From Owenia fusiformis (lineage: Eukaryota; Annelida; Polychaeta; Sabellida; Oweniidae), in assembly GCA_903813345.2 (NCBI GenBank), contig CAIIXF020000006.1:13646348-13710347 (forward strand): a stretch of DNA of 64,000 nucleotides, written 5' to 3'. Below are positions 2,458 through 57,500 of the stretch, piece after piece. The position numbers and the translations under genes were made by a program. Within the stretch, counting starts at the first letter, position 1. The number at the start of each line of letters is the position of its first letter. The notes under the pieces are model-generated. The model searched no databases. It was given only the letters and a program-made list of their open reading frames with translations, and was not told where the DNA came from.

Positions 2458-10081
<7,624 letters not shown>

Positions 10082-45533: not shown

Positions 45534-48500
45534 GTAAAGTTATATTCTTTATTTATAATTAGATACAGTATTTTTTGACAAGAACAGAAATTACATGCCA
45601 ACTGAGATGCCAAGGACATAAAGTGTCTTCACCATGTACTTATAGAGTGAATTAGATATGGCTTATACCAAGGATCAAATGGCTTTATTATCAAGGATCA
45701 AATATGTGCAACTCTGACATCAACTGTTATCTCCACCATGTTAATTTTGATGACAATAGCAAGTGGAAAAATGTTTAAGCCTATATGATATGAGAGCCAT
45801 CTATTAGCAATTCAGGGTTTTAAAAGCATGAAGTCTGATAACAATGGAAGACTCTCCAATATATATGGAGAAGCAAGCTCTTAGGTTTAACAAGAATACA
45901 GCTATTTATTTTTGAACACACTACCTCATACCATAAAAATAACCTCCCCCATGAAAAACAGCAATCGATTTGTGTTTGTTTATACTTAATATATTTCTAC
46001 CATTCTGCCATCTTTATATCAGCCTAAAACCTATGAGTTTTCTTTCCATCCTAATAATGTCAAAGTATGGGGACTTTACTCATTTTTAGTATTTTACAAT
46101 AAGTAAAAATGGTATATATTTGTAAAAAGAATATGCTAGTCTCGCTCTGGAGTTTTCTTGAAATCTTTCATATTTATTTCAGTTTTGTTTGGCCTCTATT
46201 ATAACCAGAATCCTAAAGTTTTTAAAGAATAATCAGCCATGAAAGATTTTACATGTACATGTATAATTTGCTCCAAATTACTTGTTCTTCCACATTATTT
46301 TTATTTTCATTGTTATATTTTCAGGCCTAATAAATAGCAGTCTCCTAGTGGCCTATTCTATAAGCAAGTTTATGGGGGGACTTCTCTCTGACTACATCAG
46401 TCCAAGGGTACTCTTTGCAACAGGACTATTTTGCTCAGGACTTTTAACGCTGATATTTCCACGTAAGTTATCTGTCCTGTATTTGTGTACTCAAAATACT
46501 AGTATTAGTAATTGAATTTTGCATGCTGGTAGTAATAGACATGTATTCAATAAGCATTATAAAGCATGGTTTATTTCAGGAGAGATAGGTAGCACTGTAG
46601 TGGTTGTTATAGTAGCTTAAAATAGGTTATCCCGTTCCAGGACTATGGTCCTGTACTGAGCGCATACATTTGCCTGTACGATTACAACTTGGGAGAATTA
46701 TCTACGCCCCTTCCACTTAAGAAACCTACCTCAATGCATTCTAGAACTCAAAATGTAACTTCTAATATATTGGAACCTCCGATTGTCTGGGTTAGTTGGC
46801 AGAACGAGGTCTTTTTGTTTCTTATGGCTCTTTTGGTCAAAGTTCGATTAAGATGGCGGTTATAATGGAATTTCCTGAACTTTTCCGTAATAGCATGAAC
46901 TTGGTATTTCGTTACGTCACTTCCGTGTTTAAATGGATTTGTTTCCAGTAAGAAACATTGTTTAACCATTCGGTATACAGTTAAGAGCATAGGATGTCGA
47001 CATGGCAGTAAATATTGAAAATATTGTCCGAAATTTTCAAAATTCCCTCTTACCGGAAGCAAGTCGTAACATCACAAATTACAAAGAAACAAAGAAAAAA
47101 TAGTCACCATGATAAGAAATAAAATTGACTGGTCAATAGAAATTGTTAAAAAAGGTAAAGTGATCAGAAATCCTGTGAAAAGGGTGACTATTTTCTTTGT
47201 AAATGTAAAAAGTGATTTCTTTTCAAGACATACTTTTCACAGATGTAGTCAATTGTGGTAATTTTGGTATTTATATATTTTTCTTATTATATATTGTCAG
47301 CCATATTAATTTATTTCAATTATTTTCCGAATTGAATATTGATCATCCTATCATATAATCCTGATATTGAAATCAATGAAAGTGCACTTAAGGCAGTGCT
47401 GTAATCAACAAAATAATCTTCATTTTCATTCTTCATTTATTTATTTCATTCAGCAACCTGTATATTCAAACAACTCTGTTAGATGGCTTTTTTAGCTCCC
47501 ATATTTTTTCAATTTGCCATGTTAAAAAACCTTGAAATGTGAACACCTTCCAATCTGAACAGTGTTGTCCAGTTCCAGTGGCATTTAGTTGAGACAGGTT
47601 TTACTGTATTTGATTTACATCAGAATTATTATTTGAAATGAACTTGATATAATATCCTCAATATACAAAGCAAAATAATGTATATACTAGCCTACTAAAA
47701 TACATTTATGAATAGAATTTCAATTTGTAACTTTTCAGAAAAGAAGGTTTATATCCAATTTTGTTAATAGAACATTTGAATGTCTTTACATGGGATGAGA
47801 CTACCAGCTATCAGACCTCTATTAGATTTTACAGTTTTCAATAACTCAAAAAATTGAATGCATAGTTTAGGTGAGAATTGCAGCTATTGGATCTTTATAG
47901 GATTTACTGTGTTCATTAAGTCCAAAAATAGAATGCATAGTTATTAATGTCTTCAACCGACAACCTTCAATTGTAGTAAGTCTGAAATGTCATGATATTG
48001 TTATAGTCTTAAAGAGACTTTAATGTGACTTAATTAGGAGAATTGCACATTCCAGTTGACAGATAAGCTTTCAGAATGTCCTGTGCCCCTTTAAGCGCTT
48101 CTTCTGATGGTTTATCCTCACAACCCAGGTGGCTCTCAAATAGGCATTTCTCGTAGGCATCCAGGGCGATGCATGCATCAACTCCTTTGTGAAGGTCCTC
48201 CATGAAACCGACATCGCAGAGCATAATGGCAGACTTGCTACAAGGCAGCTCATGCAAGTTCACATCTGGAATGAATTAAGTTATCACAAAATATAGATAA
48301 ATAGAGAATTTTCTCTTTTTTACAATGTTCCAGATCAGCATAAGATTGTAATCATTTGTACAATATATAATATATCAGGTCATTTAATATTTCATGCAAA
48401 TATTGAATCATATTTTAGTCCTATATCAATCATTTTTGTATCCTTTTCCTTTCCCTCACAAATACTTTCTTGATAATCTGGTTTTGATAAGTAGTAAGGT

Positions 48501-51500
48501 ACTGAAGTAAGATTATACATCCATGCAGTTTTTCTGGTAGATATTTTTATAAGAATGGTGTTACTGTACCTGTGGTGCTGCCAAGGTCATCTGTTTTGAT
48601 GTTGGGACAAATGCCATCTTCACGTGTGGTTGTGACCATCTCACTTAACATAGCGGTGTATTGCTTGGTCTCATCTGTGTCACATGTCTGACTCTTCAAC
48701 CCCACACAGTCTATGTACTCCTGGGAGAAAAACAATCAAATGTTTAGCCACATTAAGAATAGGGATGCCCAAGGCAGTTTTCCTGGTCAAATTCATTACC
48801 AAGTTTTTCAAAAAGATATTGCAATGACAAAACATGATCAAGCTAAGGACTTCATACTTTCTGATTATTCTGGAATTTGGTATTTTTGAGCTGAGTGAAG
48901 CCCTCCATCTGTCAGTCTGTTGCCCAATTTGTAGGACCATGAAGTTGGAGTCAAGAAAATGGATATTTTGGTTAATTTTTAGGTCTCTCTGAAGTATGAC
49001 TTGTTATCCCAACGAACGAAGTTCGGTAGGGATATAGTGAAGCCCTCTGTCCGTCCGTCTGTCCGTCCGTCCGTCAGTCCGTCAGTCAGTCAGTCCGTCT
49101 GTCTGTCCGGAAGATAACTCAAATACTAGTAGACGGATTTTCTTCATATTAAGTGGAAAGATGTATATCGGTGAATAGTTTTACGCAAAAAAAAGAATTT
49201 TCAAGATGGCCGCCGCTTTAAAAATGACGGGACTTTTTCGCAAAAATCATAAATTTTTCATTCTGAACCAAAGTAATTAATATTATTGTTTGAAATTTTG
49301 GTAGTATATTCACAACATTTATCTATTTCACATATATTCCGTGTTTTTCATCCTGACCCCCAGGGGCCGTGTATGGGGGGACAGGAAAACAGAAATTTTC
49401 GCTAATTTTTAGATCTTTCTAAAGTATAGCTTTAATATACTCAAATGAAAGGCAATTAAGAGTAGATTGCAAATATTGTATTTTTTTCCTGATTCGAGCC
49501 TCGTAAAATTCAAAAAGGCCGTCTAATGTACGATTTCGCAATAATTTTTCGATCCCTTCAAAGTTGGCTATATTATACTCAAATTGAAGGAATTTTGGAG
49601 TAGATCACAATTATGGTATTATTTTTCAGATTTGTATCTCAGAAAATTCAAAATGCCTGCTTTGCAGGAATTCGCAATTCTGAAATCTAATTTTTTCAAT
49701 TTTAACCAAAGTAATGAGTATAATTGATTGGAATTCGCTAATTGATATTTTGTTCGTTGGGATTTGCTACTCCGCGGAGTTGCCGTTATCTAGTTATACC
49801 CAAACAAATTAGATTTTAGAGTATATTGCATGTACTGTAAGTCATTTTTAGATTTATGCCTCGTAAAACCCAAAATGGCCGCCTAATTTTTTTCCATTTC
49901 TGATCATATCTTTGGATGGTTTGCACTTTGATCTTAATTGTGTGTTTTATGCATACATACATGTATAAGCATATGTGGAGTAGTATATTTGATAGCAGAT
50001 CCACAAGATAATGAAATTAAGTATCCCTACGTCGATGTCAGACTGTGTTTTAATTGATGCAGAGACAATATTTTCACTCACCTGTAAGGCTCCACACATG
50101 GTTGTTTGGCTGGGAACTCTAGCGTGGGAGTAGAGCATGAAACTGTAGCCACCACTGCGTCAAATGTGAAATTCCAAGCAATTTCTAGACGTGCAAAGAT
50201 AGTCTAGGAACTCCGCGTATCTAGAGATTCCAAGACGTGTCAAGAGGTGCAAAGACCTCGCGTGTAAAGAGCGTGTCAAGAGTTTTGATATCTCTTTGCA
50301 CAGCCTTATCAAAACAAACAGTATAATTAGACCGGCCACATGTTGTTATGCCCTATAGTCGCACTTAATTATACTTTACTAGGATTGGAATATAACAAGC
50401 ATTTTAATTTCGTGTTAATAATAATTTGTGTTTTTAAATCACTATCAAAATAAAATAAATTTAAAAGTATGTGTGTGCGTGTAAGTATAGGCAATAGCTT
50501 AGTCGAAATGAGTAGACGTGTGCAGATAGAGATCGCCTATCTATTTTGCTAAATCTGACATTTTTACAGGATCATGATATAGATCAAATGAAAACACGAA
50601 ATGTGTTTTTCTTAGGTTTATCTACCCTGATTTCGAGTGATTTGAACTTGGACGCATATTCCTTTTTTAAAACAGTTTGAATAATTAACAAAGTCCACTT
50701 TGAACCGTGTCAATCAAATTGTTAAATATGTAGATAGCACATGCAGGCCCGAATACAGGGGGGATAGATTGGTTCTAGCGACCCCTCCCCTTCCGTGACC
50801 AAAATTGCATTTTTACCCCATACTGAGCACATTTTAAATTATTTTGGCCATTTTTGAACTAACATTGCCAAAAGTGAACTCCCCCTGGAATTTCTTAAAA
50901 AGTAACCCCAGAATGTTCGTTTCTGTGCCCCCCCCCCTATCCATGGCCAGTGGGAAAACCAGATGCAGGCATAGACATTGACAGGGTGAGGGGATTTAAA
51001 TATAAAAATAGTCTTGTTTTTGGCTCCGACTTAAATATTTTGGCACTGTTTAACGAAGCCGGTTTAAGGAATGAGAGGCAGAAATAATTCCTAGAAATAA
51101 GATGGCCTGTCTTTACTGTAGTCAAGATGCTACCTAACCGCAGTTATTTTGGTTTTATAACGCCGGGGATATTGCTCGAGCTTGAATAACAAATAAAAGG
51201 CATGTTCTTATTTCTGTATTCTGTCCTTTGATTGTGTATTAAGTTGAGCTGCACGCCAAACGTTAAGATTGTTAAAACGCTTAAAATAAAACTTTATTCC
51301 TCTCAATTTACATAAAAATGAAACAGATTAGATTCGAATCTCAGTCACACCAGCCACTGGTCAAAGGAAGTACAAATATCTATATTAATCAAATGTCTGA
51401 GAATTTGATAACTGTCTGGGATCCAATGTTAATTTTATTGAATCAAACTAAGAAAAGTATAAAGATGAATTATAAACGTTTAGAGGGAAAAGTCAAATAT

Positions 51501-54500
51501 GCATTGTAACCCTAAAAATAATTCATTAAAGTGTCGTACACATTTCATAACATTTATATAAATAAAACAAATAAAGCACAACCCTAATGAATTCATATCG
51601 GCGCTAAACGGCCCTTGCAATAAAAACGCATCGAAGCAGGGAATGCTTGGACAATTCTTCCGAGACTGACTTTTGTTATTTCAAAATTGAAATATGCCTA
51701 ATTCCTATGAAATAATCAAATAACCACGCGATCTTTTTCCCTGGTTTTTACTCTATTTTAGATTTACTAGAAAAATGTTTATATGATGATTGCGTTTGCT
51801 TCTCACGAGTTCATTGAAAAGTTCAGTCTTAAAACTTTAGAGATCAAAAGACTAATTAGGCACCTGATTGCGAAAGTTTGATTGCATTTCGATCGCCGGG
51901 ATTTTACAAACGTATTGTTTAAGTAGCGATCGTGTTCTTGGGATCTTGATAACTTCCTATTTTAAGTTTTGGGTTGAAAGCAATGAGTATGTCAGACTTT
52001 CTCAAGTCCACATAATGAAACAATATCGCTTTATATTAGTCCAATGGCATAAACATACCAGTTTTTTATTGCAAAAAGAACTGTAATTAATAGCCTACAT
52101 AAAAGCATCATGATAAATAAAACATTAAAGCATATATAAAGCCTATTGTTATCAAAATCCATAAATCCTCACCATATAAATATAGTTTTATTGATGACCA
52201 AAAACAGATATCAAGGGCGTAGCCAGCTTTCAGTCAGGGGGGAGGGGTGCGATCGCCAAAAAGATTTCGGTTTTCAGTCAGGAGGGTATGATTGTGGCAT
52301 TCTAATGCTACTTTCTTCTTCTTTCTCAGCGTTTTATTTTTATTGTTATGGGGGAGGTTGCGATCACACCCCCCCCCCCCCCCCTCCTGGCTACGCCTAT
52401 GGATATTTTGGCAACTTTCACGTTTACCCCGCCCCCTAATAATTTTTGCACCCCCTTTAAATATCAGACCCGTCAGGCGTTGAGGCATGGATCAGGATAC
52501 CCTGACTCCCAAGCTGTGCGACTTCTGGCAACCGCTACACCTATATTCCCGGGGAAAACGCTTTTAGAAAAATTGTCAAATATGGTCGTGTGTGGGCAAA
52601 CACGGAGGAGGAGGAGAGGGGTGCGTGCATTGCGTGCGACCCTTCATCAGTTGTGTACCTTATTTTTGTATGAATTTCTTCCGAATGGTTATGCTAGAGG
52701 GGTTCTGATATTTATTTCTGTTTTCAAATGAAATAATTTCACCCTTGCCCGACTGACTTGTAGATAATGCACGAATCAAATAGCATGGAGATCAGATAAT
52801 CAGATTGATTCGTATTTTCGCAATCAGATGAATTAACTTATTGTTTTCTCTGATTAAAAGGCGGTTTGAAGCTACTTTTACAGGATTTGTAAATTCGCAA
52901 TCAGACTGGCTTATTTTAATATTTAGTCAGTGCAAGAGGAGGGGACTATTAATGTAGAATTTTTTTTGATTTCGAAACTAACTGAATAATTTATCACAAT
53001 TGTTAAATACGCAAACAGAAACAGGTTTAAAAATGAGAATAGAGGCAAAAAAGTCTATTCATAAAATGTAATTAAAACCCGGGAATTAAAAGCAATTTTA
53101 GACTGTTAGATCTCTTCTGTAATCAAGGTGATGTTGGTACACTTCCGCCGTTAGAAAAACAAAGACTAAGACAAAGACTATATAGCAATTAATCCTTTTG
53201 TAATCATTCAATGTTAGATTCTTATTATTTTGTTGGACAATGTTCAGACTTCTGACTTCTGGTTCGAAAAATACATTTGTCCATTTCCTCTCAAGAAGTT
53301 TTCAAAGGTAATCAAGTCGATTTGTTTGAGTGCTTAGCATTGTTTTTCATAACTTGACGCTTCCATGAACAGAATGACTTTGAAAGGAGTTTTTATAATT
53401 TTAGCTTTTATACGGACATGCTTATTAGTATATTTCTATATGAACGTTATAGTTATGTGATGTAACATCGCCCCCCCCCCCCCCCCCGATATTACAGGTA
53501 TACAAATTTTGATCGGAAAACATTAACTTGCAATTAAAAGCAATTTTAGACTGTTAGATGATCTCTTATGTAATCTAGGTGATGTTGGTACACTTCCGCA
53601 TTTAAGAAAATAAAGACTAAGACAAAGAGAACTAAGCAATTAATCCTTTTGTTATTATTAAATGTTAGATTCTTATTTTTTGATTGGACAATATTAAGAC
53701 TTCTGTCTCCGATTGTTATGCAGGTATGTGTATAAAATCATGTGAACAACATTATCGTGGAAACTCCCATCTTCATTCTCATAATGTCTTACAGCTATTT
53801 CGCAAATGACATAATCCTAAACAACATATACCCTGCGTGCAGAGTCTTGTTAAACTACGACGAAGCTCTCTTTTAAGAAGTGAAGTCAAACGAATGCAAA
53901 GGGTAAACAATATATGGACATAACGATAATATTGCAGAACTGAGCGAAAAGAAAGGTGGAACAAACCTGATTAAGATATTTTATTTTTGAAATGCACAAA
54001 GGGCAACAGTTGAAGAACAAAAGTTAAAGGCGTTTTGAAATAGATCGTGCTTTTATATGATCCCCTTCTATAATACCCTACCCTTTGCATTTGTTCGACT
54101 TCACTCCTTAAATGAGAGTTTCGTCTTCTCGTAGTTTATAATTAGACTCTGCACGCAGCGTAATAGTGCCCCTATTAGCATCTACTATAATATTTATTTT
54201 TCTATCCGATATACAACTGATACTGATTTCTTTCCCCGGACAATGTGTTATCTCATGATCCGTTGACATCATCAACAATTTGATTTACCACAAGAGTAAC
54301 CAACATTCCTTAATTAAAAAGAATTTCTTGAATTTTATAGCAAAAACACTATGACACAATAACATCGAGGCAAAATCAAAACATCGTGTGGAAATAAAAG
54401 GCATACAAAATGGCCATTAAAATGAAATTCTTGTTCATAAAAGTATCAACTTTATTACATTGGACGCAAATACAAAGTATAGAATAAATAAAAATAACGT

Positions 54501-57500
54501 CTTCCCAGAGATTACAATACGGATCAGTAAGTCAACAAATCTAACTGTTAAATAAACAAACTTAGCCCATGTCTGCAAGTGTTCGTCTGCTGGTCAGAAC
54601 TCGGTATCCTCTTCGGATAATCAATTTCTGTGACTACTGATGTCTTAAATAATTCATAAAGACGACGTTGTCTTTAAATAAGGATCTTTAATCTACAAAC
54701 TGTAAATAAATAGCGTGAACCCGGGATCGTAGACAACAACATTGATACCTTGCTGTCCTCTGTTAAATCACGAAACCCGTTTCCCTTAATTTTTTTACTA
54801 AGAGACTTATACATGCATAAGTTATCTATCAAATTATTTTTCTTTAAATATTAAATGTCGTCTAAGTTTGTTTTTATGATTAGTCTTCATCTAGATTCAT
54901 TAATCATCACGATATTTATATATATACATATTATGTAATAGACCTATCATATCACGTCCGTAGTTACAAAGTCAACTACATATTAATGCAATAGAATAAG
55001 ACTCAATAATTAAAAAAATAAACCTCAGTATTCGGGCCTAAAAAACACAGATAAGTGTATCAATACCAACGGGTAAGCTCAAATAACCTTCCAAATATGT
55101 GCATCAATAATCAAGGATTGCGAGTACTAAGGACCGGGTAAGATGGTGGTAACATTGGTATTGCTAGTTATTAAACACGATTTTGTCTTGTGTTGGGAAT
55201 ACGTTATTGGGTTTATAAGCGTAACAAAGGGGGGGGGGGGCGATGGGTTCGCACCTCCTCCTACAACCAATAAAATACAACCATAAGGTAGAGGAAGAAA
55301 AGAGCATTAAAATTATTTTTGTTTGAAGCTTCTAGCTCAGATTTGAAGGAAGTTGCATCATTTTTGTAAAAATTCAAAACAAATATTTTTTGCCTCATTT
55401 ATGTCACGATCGCACCCCCTGACTGAAAACCTAAAATATTTTGGGTGATTACATCACCCCTCCCCCCAACTGAAAGCTGGCTACGGCCCTGGGGTTTTAT
55501 CGAAAACTAACATTTTATCATTATGCGGAAAGTCCAATATGAAATCTTAAATGGTATATGTATGTTGCATTTATTGAGGGAATTCCACTGTAAACTATAA
55601 TGTGAATGTTTGATACATGTATGAATACTTCCATACAACCATCAATATCCATTCTTTTGAAATAAGATGTTACAACAAAGGGAATATTGAAAACTACAGT
55701 GGTAAGAGCATCTTTCTGACTGCTAATTATGTGATCAACATTTTGATTGCACCTAAGCTGGAGATTAAATACTAGATTAGTAAAAATATAGAGTTACGTA
55801 TAATTACTTCATGTTAAAACACTATATGTATTGCTTTTGGTAATTAATTAGTTGCATTCGCGAATACAAGATATAACTCCACTTTGCTCCTGTGCAACCC
55901 CTTACCGGTCACAAATCTGGAAATAATTACTTCATGTTAAAATACTATATGTATTGCTTTTGGTAATTATGTCAGTTGCTTACACATAATTATCAATGTG
56001 CCAAGAGCGAGTAATGAGATTCCAATCAGCGCGTGTCAAGACTTTTGGCATGGTCTGTGCACTGCTTTGCATGGCGTGTGTCAAGAAGTGCATAGATGTG
56101 TAAAGAGTTGGATTCATCGCGTGTCAAGAGGTGTAAATAATTGGCACGTCTAGAAACCCGGCGTGAAAAGACTAGTTTCTAGACGTGTCAAGAATTGGAA
56201 TCCCATATTTCACGCAGTGCACATCTCTGTAGCATATTTGTATGACAGTTGGCATCTATAACAGGAATCAAATAGACCATGTAGAATAACTCATTTGTGG
56301 CCGCGTTAACAATTTTCCTACAATTTTGTTTAGTCTTCACTAATGGGCAATACAGGGAGTTCATCCAAATCAAACCCCAAAAAACTGTAGGCCATGACTG
56401 CATGCTATACCTAACTTAAATGTCACCACCGTAGACTGCCTGGCCAAGTCCACAACATATCAAAATATTGAAAGCTTGAACAAGAAATTACAAACGAATG
56501 TGCCCAGAATAAGTTAATTAAATGATTTCTTAATGTTTATTTGCTTTATTAAACATAAAATATGGATTACTTTAATACATGTAATATTGTTACATACCAG
56601 CTTTATCTCCCAGGTTTAAGTATGCATTTTCAAACTCGTGTAAGTTAAGTGCGCCATCTTTATTACTGTCAAGGCTGTTGAAGGTTTTAATCAACACACG
56701 GCTGGGCTGAGGGAAACAGTTTTTAAACTCATTAAGAGTCAACTTGTCATCAGCGTTAGCGTCACACACTTTGAAAACATCACTGTAGTCAGCTTTTTGC
56801 TCTGCTGAGCGGCGCCTTAAGTAAAAAATGTACAATAAGCAACATGAGAAAAGCAGACATAATGGATAAAACAAGTACAACAAACAGGATTGTCCCTTTT
56901 TGAACAAAAATAAAGCAGTGAGCTGACTTACATGTATTAACAATAGTTTCTCTAATTTTACATGCATATTGTATGAGTTACACAACAAAATAGACAACTT
57001 TTTAACTTCAATGTACATGTACATGTATTCCTATTCTTATTGATTAAAATTGCCACTTCTTTTTTTTATAAAACTTTGGCAATCTTATTGTTTGCATATC
57101 TTCATTAATTAATGGAATAAACTCACATACATGTATAACAAAAACAACATTAGATTGAACTCATCCATTAAACCTTTAATCCAATTGCTCTTTTTTCATG
57201 CAATTTTACATTTGAAAATTCAACATACTGTAGTGTATTATATTACAAAGTAAAGTAAACATAATTTTAATTGTTAGCATTACAAGTAATTTACCTTCGA
57301 AATGGTAATGTATATCTGACTCCAACATAGAGTCCACTGCCTCCTGCCTCACTAGGGCCCCCTACACCAATTGTACCTCTCCCCACACGAAATCTGTTGC
57401 GAACACACCCATCTGCCACATTCAGCCAATCGCTAGAAAGAGCGATCAACAGACAAATTGCTCCAATTGCGCTGCTTAACCGAGTCATTACTTTAATTTC

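Follow-up and report, generated by a model that had tools for sequence, protein, structure and literature searches.

A young CACTA-like transposon splits a coding exon of a duplicated EF-hand gene in the annelid Owenia fusiformis and probably leaves a null copy

What becomes of a gene when a coding exon is interrupted by a 6-kb sequence that looks like a transposon: is the exon genuine, how old is the interruption, and can a protein still be made? The question is raised by a stretch of 64,000 nucleotides from Owenia fusiformis (assembly GCA_903813345.2, contig CAIIXF020000006.1, positions 13,646,348 to 13,710,347 of the forward strand; hereafter, the window), in which a minus-strand gene carries an element with CACTG ends inside its third exon. 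We hold with high confidence that a young non-autonomous transposon of the CACTA-Mirage-Chapaev group has split exon 3 and that the resulting copy of the gene is probably null. The parts of the gene and of the element that enter the argument are as follows.

57295 to 57488, minus strand: host gene exon 1, with the ATG and a leader judged hydrophobic by eye
56598 to 56815, minus strand: host gene exon 2, encoding an EF-hand pair
56220 to 56255, minus strand: host gene exon 3, first part, including one CAC
50082 to 50149, minus strand: host gene exon 3, second part, with a GTGAGT donor from 50081 (score 7.9)
48570 to 48720, minus strand: host gene exon 4, from paralogue alignment and gene model
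48030 to 48265, minus strand: host gene exon 5, ending with the stop codon
50153 to 56219, unstranded: non-autonomous DNA transposon, 6,067 bp, with CACTGCG...CGCAGTG ends
50150 to 50152, unstranded: left copy of the target-site duplication CAC, present as a single CAC in the contig 7 paralogue
56220 to 56222, unstranded: right copy of the target-site duplication CAC, read from the window sequence
50153 to 50177, plus strand: left terminal inverted repeat, 5' type, CACTGCGTCAAATGTGAAATTCCAA
56195 to 56219, minus strand: right terminal inverted repeat, 3' type, reading CACTGCGTGAAATATGGGATTCCAA on the minus strand
50190 to 50281, plus strand: five left subterminal repeats SGTGYMAAGA, from a motif scan of the window
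56032 to 56193, plus strand: three right subterminal repeats, copies of CGTGTCAAGA, from the same scan
50905 to 55193, unstranded: internal repeat segment that is also found separately elsewhere, with a common right end near 55193

The split exon was delimited at both of its edges. The transposon begins with CACTGCGTCAAATGTG and ends with CATATTTCACGCAGTG, and together with the two CACs it fills positions 50150 to 56222. The sequence-only reading, made before any database search, had described a 6,067-bp element with CACTG termini and CAC duplications within exon 3 of the antisense gene; this description was correct to the base, and the exon itself was confirmed by paralogues. When the transposon and one CAC are left out, the exon reads ...AGA TGT GGC TAC AGT... 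with the frame open, in agreement with the in-frame join proposed in that reading. The rejoined exon measures 104 nt, is entered in phase 1 and left in phase 0, and fits the end of exon 2 and the start of exon 4. In total, the five exons of the minus strand encode 300 residues followed by a stop (301 codons).

The paralogues were found with a protein search of the same genome assembly (498 Mb, 525 contigs), to which the family searches below also refer. Genes with an uninterrupted exon 3 lie on contigs 7, 5, and 12, with amino acid identities to the host gene of 89–91%, 58–60%, and 49%, respectively, the last being four residues longer. Because these paralogues hold the same exon without the transposon, the split exon is genuine and not a product of chance. 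The closest of them, on contig 7, has five exons with one CAC in exon 3, and its introns are partly alignable to the window. The flanks of the insertion (50073–50152 and 56220–56294) match neighbouring stretches of contig 7, the overlap between which is precisely the trinucleotide CAC. By this alignment, exon 3 of the contig 7 gene is the pre-insertion site preserved in a duplicate, i.e., a natural empty site.

The host protein gave a Pfam match to EF-hand_7 (E 2.4e-7), and all 10 of its matches to solved structures at E ≤0.01 were named calcium-binding or EF-hand. It is a small calcium-binding protein that is probably secreted. No convincing extra copies of the exon 3 domain were found in the 64-kb window. 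Just downstream of exon 3, a very common repeat (49300–49795; 1,947 first-look candidates) ends within the intron, and its top matches in the genome are 97–99% identical.

The element belongs to a family that is widespread in this genome. Searching with a 25-bp terminal-repeat pattern (≤2 mismatches) returned 129 forward and 133 reverse termini, 262 in all, against no match for the same pattern read backwards; the expectation that other copies would share these termini was therefore borne out. Of the 100 termini listed, 78 can be grouped into 39 facing pairs, each with one 5' and one 3' type end, that are 3,805–14,809 bp long (median 6,187); the other 22 are without a partner in the list. Target-site duplications of 3 bp were present in 20/20 end pairs read (one of them TCA/TCA) and in 16/16 other copies read whole. 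Since four copies are common to both sets, these amount to 32 distinct copies, and with that of the window a perfect duplication was seen in 33 of 33. The checked copies correspond to 29 of the 39 listed pairs plus four on contigs 10 and 11, and they had been selected for well-matching ends on both sides, so that this rate is valid for intact copies. The duplicated triplets are AT-rich (23% GC versus 33–35% in the window) and follow no single sequence, with TWA accounting for 4 of the 33.

Over the 16 other whole copies, the first unbroken match to the window copy extended over 362–756 bp from the left end in 14 (longer in two) and over 144–2,046 bp from the right end, while the interiors differed. 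Within the window copy, the right terminal inverted repeat is identical to the left at 21 of 25 letters. The subterminal motif SGTGYMAAGA matches eight times in the window, and all eight are found at most 130 bp from the left or 190 bp from the right end; shuffled sequence gave a mean of 0.54 and a maximum of 3, although the motif was derived from the same sequence and so was picked post hoc. The element is a mosaic: its interior carries a non-coding repeat (50905–55193) that also occurs elsewhere without CACTGCG ends and with the same right end (best 33 of 4,586 candidates). Two further observations concern the interior. At 50949/50950 a stretch of 37 bp (45 bp in some) is missing relative to three transposon copies and six separate repeats; it starts with GTAAGT (in one copy GTTAGT), its last letters are AAAG, and the flanks join just as after the loss of a GT-AG intron, although a deletion between two GTs would explain this more simply. 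There are also two direct units of 149 bp (53109–53257 and 53560–53708) that are 86% alike.

The age of the insertion was estimated from the three best places in the genome that share the same interior, on contigs 10, 7, and 11. With gaps excluded, the window copy differs from them at 64/6,027, 51/5,644, and 58/4,325 aligned bases, i.e., a divergence of 0.9–1.5% among the four copies in a star pattern. None of 3,912 columns splits the four copies two against two, which is the picture of a rapid burst. When the copies on contigs 10 and 7 are aligned with that of the window (5,633 shared columns), 27 differences are private to the window copy, although five of these are adjacent and perhaps reflect one event or an alignment error. 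The 27 private differences amount to about 0.48%, which sets an upper limit on the age of the insertion. The host gene and its contig 7 paralogue, by comparison, are separated by 0.324 synonymous (dS) and 0.076 nonsynonymous (dN) changes per site (dN/dS 0.233; 297 codons, Nei-Gojobori). Judged on these divergences, the gene duplication (dS 0.32) long predates the insertion, which, on the assumption of similar neutral rates, would have taken place within about the last 3% of the time since the duplication (~0.16 silent changes per lineage). The sequence-only reading had also called the insertion recent, on the grounds that the split exon had not decayed. The recency is supported by the copies, but the argument from the exon was rejected, as at <0.5% divergence only about four changes are expected in the whole coding sequence. 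Since the intactness of the exon adds little, the age rests on the comparison of element copies.

What the interrupted gene may still produce was examined through its reading frame and splice sites. Read-through into the transposon adds 10 residues (ALREIWDSNS) and reaches a stop after 159 residues, upstream of two introns. A stop codon ahead of downstream introns is expected to lead to decay of the message. Because the premature stop precedes two introns, nonsense-mediated decay is expected to eliminate the message of the interrupted allele; failing this, a truncated protein should result. Splicing offers little escape. The scores given here depend on a generic base table, by which the gene's own donors range over 1.1–7.9 and its own acceptors over 1.7–6.2. 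Out of 1,786 donor-acceptor pairs (donors 56250–55400, acceptors 50900–50083), six keep the frame, all of them weak, and the best loses 36 nt. The frame is also kept when exon 2 is joined to either of two acceptors that lie within the second part of exon 3; these score -2.2 and -8.4. Omission of exon 3 puts the remainder out of frame. From these scores an in-frame protein of reduced length is unlikely, and this copy of the gene is very likely broken by the insertion.

Two alternative accounts would leave the insertion with a different meaning. One of them, that the transposon acts as a new intron in the manner of introners and is spliced out of a functional message, has precedents: many introner families show the duplications of DNA transposons (49/130) or their inverted repeats (72/177) (PMC9860276). 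The acceptor at the end of the element, CGCAG|TG at 50154, also scores 3.0, within the range of the gene's own. The matching donor at 56222, however, scores only -4.3, a value equalled or exceeded by 47.9% of the GTs on the strand, and the use of this terminal GT with the terminal CAG yields 33 + 73 = 106 nt instead of 104. The shift of 2 nt agrees with what had been calculated from the sequence alone, as does the view that the element is not cleanly spliced away, and with no strong frame-keeping pair among those tested we consider a spliced, functional gene highly improbable. The other account, in which the locus was already a pseudogene and the transposon hit dead DNA, draws on the existence of a close intact paralogue, as relaxed selection on one member of a pair is common. 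Against it, the insert is the only damage to the five exons, their GT-AG splice sites, and the 300-residue frame, the phases agree with those of the equally intact contig 7 gene, and the dN/dS between the two genes is 0.233, as quoted above. Moreover, over exons 2 and 3 (103 positions, 17 differences; contig 5 gene as outgroup, contig 12 gene excluded) the private amino acid changes number three in the interrupted copy and seven in the intact copy, with seven ambiguous. Prior death of the gene is therefore improbable, though less so than its rescue by splicing. An assembly artefact was also considered and rejected, since the clean ends and the duplication are like those of other copies.

A third alternative concerns the classification and is compatible with disruption of the gene by a young transposon. 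It places the element in Chapaev and not in CACTA/EnSpm. Ends of the form 5'-CAC/GTG-3' and duplications of 3–4 bp are hallmarks of Chapaev too (PMC4079192), and an animal CACTA element of the TRC type is reported with 2-bp duplications (PMC1636069). On the other side, Chapaev3 is reported to target TWA (PMC4079192), which is found here in only 4/33, and CACTG ends with crowded subterminal repeats resemble CACTA (PMC2613891). The Chapaev3 subgroup was rejected on its targets, and Chapaev as a whole seems to us somewhat unlikely. The earlier label of CACTA-like is thus favoured by the ends, the 3-bp duplications (33/33), and the subterminal repeats, and is secure only to the level of the CACTA-Mirage-Chapaev group, within which these features make the CACTA branch more likely.

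Several results weigh against the proposal that such an element was mobilised by a transposase of this group. None was recognised among the frames of ≥130 amino acids listed from 17 whole copies, although a transposase of another lineage, split into short exons, could escape such a listing. The longest frame of the window copy (141 amino acids) and a recurrent frame of 139 amino acids in another copy had no Pfam match, and tblastn of six genome transposase frames against the 17 copies gave no match at E 0.01. The sole long frame in the 16 other copies (1,230 amino acids) comes from a nested long interspersed nuclear element (LINE), located at L027:1572-5261 (contig 7, 33.41 Mb), with reverse transcriptase (E 3.5e-33) and endonuclease (E 4.6e-11) matches. 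Searches with PF02992, DUF4218, and two transposase proteins gave 62 hits after near-duplicates were merged, and the closest lay 25 kb from any of the 139 termini compared (about half of the 262 counted). Among 14 matches to the PF02992 transposase, nine loci have the same 608-amino-acid open frame and three are identical over 3,492 bp, so that CACTA-type activity is recent in this genome. CACTGCG ends were not found in the four PF02992 loci examined, and two PF02992 lineages with partly visible borders have other ends. The intact 608-amino-acid loci (L018-L022 and L023; contigs 1 and 6) represent a very recently active element, with ends of its own.

With so recent an insertion, the presence/absence polymorphism suggested in the sequence-only reading is plausible. 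No second haplotype of the insertion site was found in the assembly: besides the locus itself, the right flank matched short repeats and the paralogue on contig 7 (best 40 of 93 candidates), and the left flank a common repeat (best 40 of 1,947 candidates).

We thus propose the following course of events. A non-autonomous cut-and-paste transposon, probably mobilised by a transposase acting in trans, inserted at a CAC in exon 3 of one of two duplicated EF-hand genes, with the three bases duplicated as seen against the paralogous empty site. Its family has spread recently in the genome, as the low and star-like divergence of the compared copies shows. The reading frame runs 10 codons into the transposon and stops, which would lead to message decay or a truncated protein; the intact contig 7 paralogue may cover the loss, and the insertion may remain a presence/absence allele. 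A more specific version, in which the family is still moving through a CACTA-Mirage-Chapaev transposase from outside the PF02992 lineages found here and in which the insertion segregates as a null allele of one member of the gene pair, is doubtful in our judgement. If it held, some individuals of the population would have the second EF-hand protein and others would lack it. The mechanism is a textbook one, and what is described here is mostly an ordinary disruption of a gene by a transposon. The locus nonetheless presents a well-resolved example of a young CACTA-like element dividing a coding exon, for which a paralogue supplies a natural empty site. The insertion is a ready marker for asking whether insertions of this kind are segregating as null alleles and whether the duplicate gene buffers them. 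Elsewhere in the window, a minus-strand open frame of 229 amino acids (4398–5087) contains C2H2 zinc-finger-like repeats by eye.

Among the papers listed by searches on CACTA elements in animal exons, none was recognised as a close precedent. The soybean CACTA element Tgm has CACTR-type ends, a 3-bp duplication, crowded subterminal repeats, and insertions in genes (PMC2613891). These traits, common to plant CACTA/EnSpm elements such as Spm/En and Tgm, recur in the Owenia element, but its ends are CACTG instead of CACTA, no transposase was found with these ends, and the host is not a plant. Animal TRC elements such as SmTRC1 likewise combine an animal genome with CACTA-superfamily inverted repeats, but the duplications reported, in 7/14 copies, are of 2 bp (PMC1636069) and not of 3 bp as here. 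Chapaev elements share the 5'-CAC ends and the 3–4-bp range of duplications, while the TWA preference of Chapaev3 is absent from the element studied here (PMC4079192). Introners, finally, are likewise non-autonomous and lie in coding sequence with a duplication, whereas the transposon described here is 6 kb long, has a weak donor, and adds 2 nt to the message when removed from end to end.

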